Assembly (NCBI RefSeq): GCF_000613125.1
Contig: NZ_HG964497.1
Coordinates: 2,992,971-3,056,970 of the forward strand
DNA: 64,000 nucleotides
Direction of reading: 5' to 3'
From: Bacillus sp. EB01
Lineage (GTDB): Bacteria > Bacillota > Bacilli > Bacillales > Cytobacillaceae
This document shows positions 35,968 to 42,590 of the stretch, one piece after another; position 1 is the stretch's first letter, and every line of letters starts with the position of its first letter. Below the pieces are notes generated by a model. The model did no database searches. It was not told the DNA's origin and saw only the letters and a program-made list of their open reading frames with translations. A program made the position numbers and the translations under genes.

Positions 35968-36117
35968 ACAGGAAGCTATTTCTATTACAAAAGAAAAGAG
36001 AAATATTTCAAGACTGTAATATTTTAATAGTAATAGACTACTAAATTTTATTATAAAAAATTCCTGCTTATTGAATGTCGGTTTTCTATAAACAGTCTCT
36101 CCTCCGCTATCGGGCCC

Positions 36118-36250
36118 CTCTATTAACGACTGTACACTCTATTTTTTAACCGCAGGGTCGTCAACAACCTTTATTGACGACCGCGTACTCCTTTTTTTTA
36201 TCTGCAGGGTCGTCAAGAACTCTATTGAAGACTGTGCACTCCATTTTTCA
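36118..36250. repeat. GTCGTCAA dyad repeat, 51-bp period
   Basis: Units contain TTGACGAC about 25-30 bp before GTCGTCAA. The left arms end at 36130, 36181 and 36232, exactly 51 bp apart; the third unit is partial. No gene is supported in 35.97-36.42 kb. Confidence 0.7.
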
Positions 36251-36425
36251 CCCTCCTTTACAAACAACACCATTTTTCTTATAAGGTTCGATTCTTTTTG
36301 ATTAAGCAGTTAGGCCTTATTTAGGAATTACGGCCTATTTTTGCAATTCAAAGGCTTGAGATTGGAAAAATATTCATATAACAGGTATAAATGAAATGGT
36401 ATTTACTATCGGGATGGTGATATTT

Positions 36426-37880: not shown

Positions 37881-37944
37881 GTCCAAGAAATAAAAGTCCC
37901 CAACACACCAAATAGGGACACAGCAGTTCAGCTATAAGAATTTT

Positions 37945-38090
37945 ATTAGATTAAGTAGCAGTATGGACAAGGCAATTAATCCAAAAAAGTATATATATTA
38001 GATTAATTGAGCAAGCTAAAGGGCAAATAATCTAAAATAGGTTGTTTATTAGATTAATAGCTGTGTCGGCGGAGGTATTTAATCTAATAA
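37945..38090. repeat. ATTAGATTAA dyad repeat, 51-bp period
   Basis: ATTAGATTAA starts at 37945, 37997 and 38048 (spacings 52 and 51). Each is followed about 25 bp later by an inverted arm; in the third unit this is the perfect TTAATCTAAT (38079-38088). No gene is supported between 37.88 and 38.30 kb. Confidence 0.7.
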
Positions 38091-38242
38091 ACTTGGGTTT
38101 CCTTGGCCGCTCCCCTTTTTTCAAAATGTCCAATAAATTTATTCGACAAAAAGCAGGTAGTGACACAGGCACTATATTCTTAAGCAGAGGTCTTTCTTCA
38201 CATTTCGAATATTTCCATCTATAATGGATATATAAATAAAGA

Positions 38243-38452: not shown

Positions 38453-38657
38453 GGTTATCACCTCCCTTCCAAAACGGAAAGAAGAAAGAGACAACCAACC
38501 ACCCTCACAATATTCGGCTGCAACTCTATGGTACCATATCCCCTCTCAAAAAAATGAATCAACCTTCGACAAAATTTGAGGAGTGAAAGGCATAATATTC
38601 TAAAGGGATCTGAAGGCCAGGCAAATAGGCTATCCAGTATCGGACAGCCTATTTAAA

Positions 38658-41600
38658 TCAAACTCGCTCTAGTACACTCGCTTCAAGCTTCTCTTGTAAG
38701 AGAGCTCTCTCCTTTGGCGTAAAGGAATTTAACCCCATAATTAAGTCGGGAATTTCACGAGGGGAACTTTGATTCACAAAGTCATAAACACCATAGTAAA
38801 GTTGAATCTCCGAATCTTCTAAATCAACCTGCTGGTTATTGACAAAATCAAGAATGAATTCATCAAGGTTAAAATAATACGAATACCAGAGAAGTTTAAC
38901 GAAACACTCATTGTTTAATTGACTTTCGAAAAACTCCCACTCCACGAATAATCTTGTCATAATCGTGGACACAGTTTCACTTAGTTCATAGGCCCAGTAA
39001 ACCTGAATTATTTTTAGCAAAAGTGGTAATTCATTAATCTCAAAGGCAACCTCAATTAAATAATCAGCATTTTCATCCAAAAACGTTCCAAAGGGTCCAT
39101 TAGCTTTACTTTCATCGAGATCACCCAATAAGGCAAAAAATGCAAAGTATAGCAGGTCAATCTCTTCTAAATCCAATGCGAAATCCAACAAGTAACGAGA
39201 ATAGATATCTAGCAGGAACTTGATGCTATCCATCGAGGGGTTGTGACCCGCCTGCAATAGGCCGCACAATGATTCCATTACAATCAGTGCATCATTATAG
39301 TTATCTGTCGAAAGGAACTTTTCCAGAGTAACGAGCTGAACATTCATTCTTGTTCCTTTATCCAAATCAACAAGGGATTCCAGATAGGCAGAAACTTGAT
39401 TCGGTTTTCCTTTGGCAAAAACAAAACTGAACAAAGCTTCCATCTGGGTTTCGAAAAATGAATTTGTTAAGCCCATCGCTGTTTCCCTTTTCGGCAATAA
39501 TTCATCATCATCAGGCTCAACTAGTGCCTGTTCTTCCACCTGTCTAGTCTGCAGTTCCCTTATTTGTGCCTCTAGTTTTGAAATATTCTGCTTCAGCTTT
39601 ATTACCTCTTCTACGTGGGAAGCCATAACTTTAGCAAACTCAGTTTCTACAACTTTTAGAAAATCTGAAGCGTGGTCAACTTGCTCCTTGCTAGCCAGCT
39701 CATGAAGGTCTCGTTCCTCTTTTAGCCTTATCTCTTCAAGTCTCCGCTCCTCTTCCAGACGCTGTTGTTCCTTAAGCTTTCTTTCCTCCTCAAGCCTGCG
39801 TTGTTTTAACTCTTCCCTGACAGCTTCCGCTTTTTTGGGATTCAGCACATCAAGGAGAGGAAGCGCAAGGGTTTGGTGATGAAAGACTTTCACCTCATGT
39901 AAAGCCCTTGTAACAGCAACATACAGAAGCTTTCTGTTATAATCATCATCCTTGTACCGCTCCATCGAGGCATCCGCCAGAATGACTGCGTCGTATTCTA
40001 TCCCTTTCGTCAAAAATACCGGAACGATAATCACACCGCCCTCATACTCACTGGATGATTTGGTAATCAATCCGATATCCGGAATCTTCTTCTGAAGTGT
40101 GCCATGTAAACTTTTGGCTTCCTCCCATCCTCTTGTAATGACAGCTATGTTACTGTATCCCTTATCACGGTACTGACTAATTGCCATTTCAATGTTTCCA
40201 AACAGATCTTTTCTATTCAAGGCCTCTTTTATGATCGGTTCGGTTCCATCCCGTCCAATTGGCTCTGAAAGGGTATAGCGCCCTTGCGCATAAGGCCGGA
40301 TTACTTTATTGGCAAATTGAACAATCTGGACCGTAGAACGATAGATTTTGGACAGTTCAAGATGGGTATAGTCATCTTTGCCTTCTAGATTCAATGCTGG
40401 CAGCACTTCTTCCCAGCTATTAATTCCCCTAAAATCATAAATACTCTGCCCTAGGTCACCTAGCAGCATGATGCGACCAGGGAGAACAAGAGAATTGATG
40501 ACTGCAAATTGGTAAGGGCTATAATCCTGTGCTTCATCGACCAGGACATAGTGGAATTTCTTATTGGTCAGCTCAGTCCTGTTATGTGAATCATAGGCAC
40601 CGATCCTCCCTGTCAGCCATTTCTCAACTTCCAGTAACGGAGGAAGATCGTCAACCGTAATTACCTTCCTAGCAAAATTCGCCTGGTTTCCTTGAACAAA
40701 CTCATCCAGATGCTCCACTTCGGCAAAGAAATCCTGTAACAGCTCGGGGCTGCATGAAAACTCTTGATACAGGTCAAACGCAGTCGGCAGCTGCCATGCG
40801 CCTGCATATTCATTAACTTTTGAGGACAGCTTTCTTCTTATTTTAGCTGTTAGCTTCCTGCTTCCTTCTGTCTCCCAATTGACAGAACCGTTAAAACGGC
40901 TAGCTTCCGCCTTCAGCATTTCAATGACGCGAGTTCTTGAAGCTTCAGGTGTGCTGATTTCCAGTGATGTCATAAACATTGCGCGTATTTTCTTACTATC
41001 GAAAGTGAAATCCCCCAATTCTGTTGGGACAAACAGACCGTTAACAGGAACAAGAGTTTCTTTCCTTGATTCAAGAAACTCATTCAATTTCTTTTGGTAA
41101 AATAAAGACCCTTTCACCTTACTAGACAGTTTCTCACTTTCCGGCAACCCTTTTTGAATAGGGGTGTTGGAACTGAGCAGCCTGAATCCATATTCTGCTG
41201 CTGGAATTCTCTCCAGTGCAAATTTCTGGAATGTAGTCTGGGTAATGTCGCCGATATTAAGATGAGGCATTGCTTCCTGGATGTATTTGATATACATCAT
41301 ACTAGGTCCAAAAATGACAATCTTCTGTTCTTCAAGAATTTCTTTGTAATTGTATAAAAGATAAGACAATCTATGCAGAGCGATAATAGTCTTACCGCTG
41401 CCTGCCGACCCCTGGACTATGATAGGATTCGTAATTGGCTGACGGACAACTGAATCCTGCTCTCCCTGGATTGTTTCCCAAATTTCATTCATTTTCGTCT
41501 TAGCATTATCATTCAGCCTGTCCATTAGAATTGGATCGATATAGCCTGTGGCTTCCGCCCACTCTTTATCTGTAATTTTACCAATCTTCCCATTGGCATT

Positions 41601-42365
41601 ATCAATCTGTCTAAGCAGTGTAACTTCAATATTTCCAACACCTTTGATAAATTGCTTGCCTATAAGCTTTTGGGCAAAAATGCTCCCCAAATAGGACTGT
41701 GCTTCATAAACTCGCTCACCCATACCTTTGGAACCAAGGTAATACGAAATGGTGTCTCCATTTTCATGTTTAATATCAAGCCTTCCAAAATAAGGCTTCT
41801 TAGCTTGCTCCTCGATGATTGGAATGAGCCTTGACTCTCGCTCTGCCAATATTTCATTCGTCCTTCTATCAGCGCCACCAAGTTCCCCGCCCCTGACTCT
41901 ACTACGAATTCCTTTAATTTCATTATGGAGTAATTCAATGGTATCTTTGTAATATTGCCTTTCAAACAACTGATCTCGGGAGTAAGCGAGATACTCCAGA
42001 TGAGCATTCATCGTGCTCATCCCGCTTTGATATGCAAAATACTTTTTCTTTTTAGTAGATTTGGAACTCTTTCTTACTTTGTATGTACTGAATAATTTTA
42101 TAAAATCCACATAGTTGTCCCGTTTTGCCAGCTCAAGTGGGGATACACCAAATGCATTCTTTTGGTACGGATCTGCACCGGCATTAAGAAGCAACAAGGC
42201 TATATCTTTTTTGTTATAGACAACTGAGATACTAAGAACATTGCTGCCATTCACTTCAGAATTCGGATCTGCTCCGTCTGTCAGCAGCCTTTTCACATCT
42301 AGAAGCTTACCCGCTTTTACGGCACTAAATAACTCACGGGCACTATCATGCTGTTCCGGCTTCAA
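38658..42365 (-). CDS. Ankyrin-HelD helicase fusion with coiled-coil and helical C-terminus
   Basis: 1235 residues, much longer than HelD (774 in B. subtilis). In order: ankyrin repeats (about 8-92; GADPNSEVNG, NAGADPYQKN), a HelD-like coiled coil with KKPYFGRLDI (about 120-200), then a UvrD-like superfamily 1 motor with Walker A GSAGSGKT (319-326), motif II LVDEAQD (608-614), GDLGQSIYDFRG (636-647), TKGIEYDAVI (786-795) and YVAVTRA (815-821). A Glu/Arg coiled coil (about 850-945) and an unassigned helical region (about 965-1235) follow. HelD removes stalled RNA polymerase; the ankyrin and C-terminal parts suggest extra partners. The start is TTG 42365 with GGAGTGG upstream. It is monocistronic. 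Confidence 0.9.
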   Translation of the reverse strand: MKPEQHDSARELFSAVKAGKLLDVKRLLTDGADPNSEVNGSNVLSISVVYNKKDIALLLLNAGADPYQKNAFGVSPLELAKRDNYVDFIKLFSTYKVRKSSKSTKKKKYFAYQSGMSTMNAHLEYLAYSRDQLFERQYYKDTIELLHNEIKGIRSRVRGGELGGADRRTNEILAERESRLIPIIEEQAKKPYFGRLDIKHENGDTISYYLGSKGMGERVYEAQSYLGSIFAQKLIGKQFIKGVGNIEVTLLRQIDNANGKIGKITDKEWAEATGYIDPILMDRLNDNAKTKMNEIWETIQGEQDSVVRQPITNPIIVQGSAGSGKTIIALHRLSYLLYNYKEILEEQKIVIFGPSMMYIKYIQEAMPHLNIGDITQTTFQKFALERIPAAEYGFRLLSSNTPIQKGLPESEKLSSKVKGSLFYQKKLNEFLESRKETLVPVNGLFVPTELGDFTFDSKKIRAMFMTSLEISTPEASRTRVIEMLKAEASRFNGSVNWETEGSRKLTAKIRRKLSSKVNEYAGAWQLPTAFDLYQEFSCSPELLQDFFAEVEHLDEFVQGNQANFARKVITVDDLPPLLEVEKWLTGRIGAYDSHNRTELTNKKFHYVLVDEAQDYSPYQFAVINSLVLPGRIMLLGDLGQSIYDFRGINSWEEVLPALNLEGKDDYTHLELSKIYRSTVQIVQFANKVIRPYAQGRYTLSEPIGRDGTEPIIKEALNRKDLFGNIEMAISQYRDKGYSNIAVITRGWEEAKSLHGTLQKKIPDIGLITKSSSEYEGGVIIVPVFLTKGIEYDAVILADASMERYKDDDYNRKLLYVAVTRALHEVKVFHHQTLALPLLDVLNPKKAEAVREELKQRRLEEERKLKEQQRLEEERRLEEIRLKEERDLHELASKEQVDHASDFLKVVETEFAKVMASHVEEVIKLKQNISKLEAQIRELQTRQVEEQALVEPDDDELLPKRETAMGLTNSFFETQMEALFSFVFAKGKPNQVSAYLESLVDLDKGTRMNVQLVTLEKFLSTDNYNDALIVMESLCGLLQAGHNPSMDSIKFLLDIYSRYLLDFALDLEEIDLLYFAFFALLGDLDESKANGPFGTFLDENADYLIEVAFEINELPLLLKIIQVYWAYELSETVSTIMTRLFVEWEFFESQLNNECFVKLLWYSYYFNLDEFILDFVNNQQVDLEDSEIQLYYGVYDFVNQSSPREIPDLIMGLNSFTPKERALLQEKLEASVLERV

Positions 42366-42590
42366 TTTTTACCACTCCATCTCTTCGTAAATCTAAAGCG
42401 CTTTCCTCTATTTTACTAGGATATGGAAGTGAATGGGAAGGAATTTTTACGTAAGTCAGATTATTTGGGTAATGCGATACTAGAGTGAGGAGAATAAAAA
42501 GTAGTAGTTATTATTGTAACCGAGGACAAACTTGGGCATGGCTTCATTGTGTAATACTTTTAAAAAATAGGGTGGTGCCTTGCACCAAAT

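Follow-up and report, generated by a model that had tools for sequence, protein, structure and literature searches.

The stretch analysed here (the window) comprises 64,000 nucleotides of Bacillus sp. EB01 (contig NZ_HG964497.1, positions 2,992,971 to 3,056,970) and carries on its minus strand, at 38658..42365, a gene for a HelD-like protein that we call P0001. HelD normally strips stalled RNA polymerase off DNA, and its known roles are in housekeeping and in the response to antibiotics. The P0001 frame runs from a TTG codon at 42365 to a stop at 38658 and encodes 1235 amino acids; GGAGTGG stands 5' of the start as a plausible ribosome site, and a promoter and terminator scan did no better than shuffled sequences. 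From the N-terminus, all on the minus strand, the product comprises ankyrin repeats (residues 12-94; 42084..42332), a low-confidence linker (97-129; 41979..42077) containing an F..PG..T..AHL.Y type stretch common to P0001 and its relatives L026 and L027 (see below), a helical hairpin resembling the HelD secondary channel arm (132-189; 41799..41972), a superfamily 1 (SF1) motor, a charged coil (843-948; 39522..39839) and a C-terminal helical module (958-1235; 38661..39494). The motor motifs are intact, with Walker A GSAGSGKT (319-326; 41388..41411), Walker B LVDEAQD (608-614; 40524..40544) and motif VI KLLYVAVTRALH (812-823; 39897..39932) read directly in the sequence, and both the N- and C-terminal UvrD families exceed their Pfam cut-offs over the core. 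The Pfam scan of P0001 found no nuclease domain.

The ankyrin assignment draws on Pfam, solved chains and a structure model. Ank_2 scores 26.0 bits on residues 12-94, just under its cut-off of 27.3, yet solved ankyrin and DARPin chains match with whole-chain phmmer E-values down to 8.7e-17, and the same family reaches 47.5 bits in the homologue L026, passing the cut-off, and 57.3 bits in L029. AlphaFold2 gave a mean predicted local distance difference test score (pLDDT) of 83 for the first 870 residues, with 25 sequences in the alignment, and of 70.7 for the last 398, with three. Residues 843-948 were modelled as one helix, followed by helices only up to residue 1235; the module looks solenoid-like in this middling model, and a fold search with the C-terminal region against TPR-like solenoids gave matches within noise. 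Together these results bear out the architecture proposed in a preliminary description of this DNA, namely a 1235-residue protein with an ankyrin N-terminus, intact SF1 motifs, a Glu/Arg coil after motif VI and a helical region behind it, here of about 280 residues.

The same description took the motor to be of the RNA polymerase-clearing HelD type, and this part is not supported in that form. HelD_BACSU is the best NCBIfam model for P0001, but its score of 305.5 bits misses the cut-off of 419. The DWR motif is called absolutely conserved in HelD in a passage of Larsen and others (PMC8655204), and a portion of Newing and others (PMC7749167) places HelD W137 in a hydrophobic pocket, anchoring the secondary channel arm to domain 1A. 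In an alignment of 68 HelD-like proteins (77 distinct frames, less ten that were P0001 copies or cut or split frames, with P0001 added), 64 keep DWR; it is absent from P0001 (EAQ, residues 221-223; 41697..41705, by alignment), L026 (AAQ) and L027 (HIL), while L029 (SWT) keeps the Trp only. In the alignment, 97 columns reach 95% conservation or more across the 64 DWR proteins; of these, 71 are kept in P0001, L026 and L027 and 17 are changed in all three, the changes falling on 8 of 19 columns in residues 184-252 versus 9 of 78 elsewhere (p 0.004, for a region picked after looking); Walker and motif VI residues are kept in all three. The arm-tip region of P0001 reads RSRVRGGELGGADRR, basic to neutral by eye, with no acidic tip seen; the B. 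subtilis HelD tip carries D56, D57 and E60 (PMC7749165), and the acidic tip is a weak criterion because small ordinary HelDs vary there too.

The predicted fold does resemble HelD. The model aligns with B. subtilis HelD (6wvk_H) over 661 residues and with M. smegmatis HelD over 603, although this match is partly circular because HelDs stood in the model's own alignment. It has antiparallel arm helices at 132-159 and 167-189, the match to HelD chains begins at residue 127-131, and the alignment to 6wvk_H covers the clamp arm inserted in 1A, a correspondence that is likewise not independent. In the suggested comparison with HelD structures the fold still aligns, with this circularity; the DWR Trp-cage lock is absent. 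Given the score below the HelD cut-off, the missing Trp-cage and the changed residues around it, P0001 is better termed HelD-derived: judged by its sequence, it descends from HelD but fails a defining HelD feature.

Nor is P0001 the genome's housekeeping HelD. A standard one is encoded at a separate site of that genome (G000:C1:2556589-2558886; 1209.5 bits with HelD_BACSU), the kind of second, ordinary HelD for which the preliminary description proposed a survey, so P0001 is an extra copy, and its being a replacement for a missing HelD is ruled out. The gene is the only large frame in a segment, 38575..42562, that is missing at the same place in the sister genome G005, whose flanks match the window at 98% over 398 bases and at 93% over 5442 bases and join at a single point. 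AAAA stands at both edges, and no terminal repeats beyond it were found there. We read the segment as a probable insertion of the P0001 gene and rate loss in G005 as less likely. Its G+C (0.411) is the same as that of the flanks (0.414 and 0.399), so composition shows no sign of foreign origin. A phage-borne origin was considered and is unsupported: viral contigs yielded no confirmed relative, and the HelD matches in phage and plasmid records were only partial. The other seven genomes of the genus likewise gave only partial HelD-type matches. Among 193 genomes of the family, its own included, seven others match P0001 at 1e-60 or better, none past residue 845 (scoring covered the first three candidates of each genome); 397 genomes of the order contain one full-length relative (G249, 1015 bits, residues 5-1230), and 398 genomes of the class contain no further group member. 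On this distribution, the P0001 gene is a rare accessory gene. Two short repeats lie near the segment: an intergenic element of about 130 bases (36117-36255), diverged copies of which are numerous in the window genome, G005 and G007, and a second repeat (37939-38094) that the genus carries in inverted and dispersed form.

A scan of named genomes for relatives returned two loci, in Anoxybacillus tepidamans PS2 (L056, encoding the G249 protein, L026) and Pontibacillus marinus (L055); further relatives may exist, because the scan used two peptide patterns only. The full architecture of P0001 was found once more, in Anoxybacillus; the two species belong to different families, and at about 45% identity the proteins still agree in motor motifs and in the order of their domains. 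The Pontibacillus-type protein (L027; the same in G399 and G442) has 825 residues and keeps the coil without ankyrin repeats or C-terminal module, and the 1123-residue G565 protein (L029) has the order coil, ankyrin, HelD, again without the module; ankyrin repeats thus stand N-terminal of the motor in three of the four distinct group members. In the 68-protein tree these four form one side of a branch with support 93/92. When L029, a very long branch, was left out of a 38-row tree made by a quick method, the other three grouped at 100 and were joined by the BREX-linked L019 and L082 (BREX, bacteriophage exclusion; see below) at a Shimodaira-Hasegawa-like approximate likelihood ratio test (SH-aLRT) value of 96, a grouping not seen with L029 included. 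The deep placement of the group is therefore unsure.

The C-terminal module also occurs without a motor. A profile built from residues 940-1235 of P0001 and the L026 counterpart, which P0001 matches by construction, found nine further proteins in the 397 order genomes (E 6.0e-29 to 1.5e-4). These non-helicase proteins (L105-L113; 436-602 residues) all contain the module, seven of the nine start with a coil-like stretch, and a further conserved stretch (LRxLGYQITG...EWExDLxKLK) follows the module; none of five scanned has a Pfam family over cut-off. With a coil profile from seven of them, the sole match was the coil of L026, at 22.2 bits versus at most 14.9 in 1000 shuffles; P0001 and L027 were not among the matches, and coil homology is thereby established for one of the three. 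Five of the nine loci lie beside defence genes: genes of the DISARM type (defence island system associated with restriction-modification), DrmB being assigned by reading, with an HNH gene (L120); a cytosine methylase (L124); a type I system (L125, genome G345); a restriction enzyme with its methylase (L126, whose own module protein was removed by hand from the neighbour list); and a PDC-S37-like helicase (L119). Judged by profile, this is an unnamed module, reused in stand-alone proteins of which several sit in defence loci; the C-terminal part singled out in the preliminary description for a profile search thus recurs outside helicases, whereas its fold match stayed within noise.

Two of the four group loci, those of the Pontibacillus and Anoxybacillus relatives, lie within defence islands, with restriction enzymes and NERD-UvrD or DUF4011 helicase-nucleases as neighbours. 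These neighbours come from the best 25 of 58 families at the group loci, and those above from the best 25 of 79 at the module loci. In the Anoxybacillus locus, a PDC-S37 protein (DUF4011, helicase, MTES_1575 nuclease) stands beside a NERD-UvrD protein at L056:12427-18562, about 0.8 and 5 kb after the homologue. As a control, 12 ordinary HelD loci were fetched and 11 used (L128 was dropped); none of the 11 had a restriction, DISARM, bacteriophage exclusion (BREX) or PDC model. Their DndA/SspA, RtcR and desaturase matches were read as housekeeping enzymes or regulators, the desaturase being unplaced: by eye, two RtcR matches are PAS-type sigma-54 activators and the DndA/SspA match is a cysteine desulfurase (L130, L131, L136). 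The counts of 2/4, 5/9 and 0/11 reflect our judgement of which matches are defence genes. In the window itself, the next large frame after the P0001 gene encodes a VWA-domain protein, short frames are present beside it, and brxA does not lie directly downstream.

One genomic slot connects motor and module. In L125 a module gene directly follows hsdR, and in Pontibacillus (L055) a HelD-like gene occupies the same slot, the two hsdR products being 91.9% identical over 1112 residues. Since motor and module form one polypeptide in the window and in Anoxybacillus and alternate in one hsdR slot, they may work together, as this arrangement suggests without proving. This hsdR family is present in 32 of the 397 order genomes (1e-250). 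Downstream slots were read for 27 of 32 further hsdR genes, some ending at contig ends, and none held a HelD-like or a module gene; in L055, the stretch that separates the HelD-like gene from hsdR showed no ankyrin remnant in three frames. Across L055, L125 and L139-L165 the slot behind this type I hsdR is highly variable, with genes that we take, by eye, to be CBASS-like (cyclic oligonucleotide-based anti-phage signalling system; L160), TIR-like (L156), ABC-ATPase (L145, L159) and caspase-like (L158).

A second HelD-like family of about 820 residues is tied to BREX. In genome G138, of the window's own family, L019 (locus L117) lies directly before brxA-brxB-brxC-pglX as called by PADLOC, and in four relatives (G744, G895, G725, G318) BLAST with the L117 genes again places brxA next. 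The HelD-like gene (L117:7687-10140; L166:8484-10985; L167:7249-9711; L168:7558-10029; L173:7081-9528) ends 18-53 bases before the brxA start on the same strand at all five loci. These wider HelD loci (L117, L166-L177) were chosen on score or frame length while their neighbours were still unseen, with at least two comparably long frames, G093 and G594, left out; eight others read likewise (L169-L172, L174-L177) had no brx or hsd match. One of them, L169:609-9803 (G574), encodes an 849-residue HelD-like protein, tightly clustered on one strand with genes for several P-loop ATPases and a DEAD-type helicase, by eye possibly another defence operon. The three BREX-linked members that were checked retain DWR. 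The PADLOC matches of the L117 copy are to GajB models only, so this family is seemingly not listed there as a BREX part, and neither HelD nor UvrD occurs in the main text of a 2026 BREX survey (PMC12839542). In the open literature no paper combined 'RNA polymerase recycling' with 'ankyrin', and titles and abstract openings yielded no link of HelD to ankyrin, phage defence or BREX, nor of BREX to UvrD, 'held' being also an English word.

We consider it slightly better than an even chance that P0001 is an SF1 ATPase of HelD descent that has spread horizontally, is gated by a partner and has been turned to defence against phages or other mobile DNA. The ankyrin repeats, the coil and the C-terminal helical module would serve as protein-binding platforms that keep the motor near a partner, or switch it on through one, be it a defence complex or a phage protein; the motor might then remodel a protein-nucleic acid complex on invading DNA. 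Since P0001 has retained the hairpin and the clamp-arm region, transcription complexes are a reasonable guess for the target, which we offer tentatively at clearly less than an even bet. The idea of a tethered motor for stress or defence, put forward in the preliminary description, is supported in part: the added modules are real and recur in relatives, and two of the four group loci lie among defence genes; the tether's partner is conjectural. Several points weigh against a defence role. Genes in islands may be passengers, and the assignment draws on genomic context. Four neighbours of P0001 scanned singly gave no clear defence gene, only weak Cas10-model matches to a GGDEF domain, and by eye none was seen at the G565 locus or at four of the nine module loci (L118, L121, L122, L123). 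The loci are few (2/4 versus 0/11 controls, p 0.057), and the control is not perfectly clean: eight families there include PD-T7-3 (4e-158) and mad3 (2.3e-35), neither placed, and counting one control locus as positive gives a pooled p of 0.033, two 0.105.

P0001 could instead be an extra HelD isoform, tethered to particular transcription complexes and still recycling RNA polymerase or protecting it from antibiotics. The HelD-like fold would suit such a role, but that match is partly circular; the altered DWR region, the sub-threshold HelD score, the unseen acidic tip and two neighbourhoods of four unlike ordinary HelD loci leave this account rather unlikely. Marginally less probable still is a defence helicase directed at DNA, which would partner restriction-type nucleases and no longer make contact with RNA polymerase. 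Its relatives do neighbour restriction enzymes and helicase-nucleases, the core matches GajB models (2.8e-19), and the motor superimposes closely on UvrD-DNA complexes (405-410 residues, root-mean-square deviation 3.4-3.8); however, the GajB match falls within the shared SF1 core, the HelD hairpin and clamp-arm regions are kept, and P0001 lacks a detected nuclease domain. That a lone inserted gene of such patchy occurrence is a mere passenger of mobile segments with no selected host role is very improbable, since two species of different families, with proteins only about 45% identical, have preserved the order of domains and the motor motifs, which implies selection on the protein.

Beyond P0001, a HelD-derived group that lacks the arm lock, carries adaptors and in part lies in restriction loci, together with the brxA-linked HelD, opens the question of phage defence by clearing RNA polymerase off invading DNA, and points to a C-terminal module common to stand-alone proteins, of which several lie in defence loci. 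Speculatively, and with odds well below even, anti-phage immunity may have recruited HelD motors on more than one occasion, to dismantle transcription complexes on invading DNA under the guidance of swappable adaptors; the instances, equally conjectural, would be the gene before brxA in BREX, the slot after hsdR and the stand-alone fusion P0001.

Compared with known systems, P0001 shares with class I HelD (B. subtilis HelD, 6WVK) the SF1 1A/2A motor, the N-terminal hairpin, the clamp-arm region and 71 of the 97 conserved columns, but differs in having no DWR, no acidic tip seen, and added ankyrin, coil and helical modules; its identity to ordinary HelD-like proteins is 23-30% in a 25-row core alignment. 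The brxA-linked family resembles it as a HelD-derived motor tied to a defence locus, and joins its clade once L029 is omitted (SH-aLRT 96), whereas at about 820 residues, with DWR kept in the three checked, that family has neither ankyrin repeats nor C-terminal module. Gabija GajB is a UvrD-like SF1 helicase used in defence; unlike in Gabija, GajA was not found among the four window neighbours scanned (E 0.1), and the GajB likeness is limited to the SF1 core. BrxHII of type 3 BREX, whose architecture is reported in the BREX survey (PMC12839542) to parallel the RNA polymerase-associated helicase RapA, is a Swi2/Snf2 helicase with other domains, and its likeness to P0001 would be that of a defence helicase related in design to an RNA polymerase-associated one.
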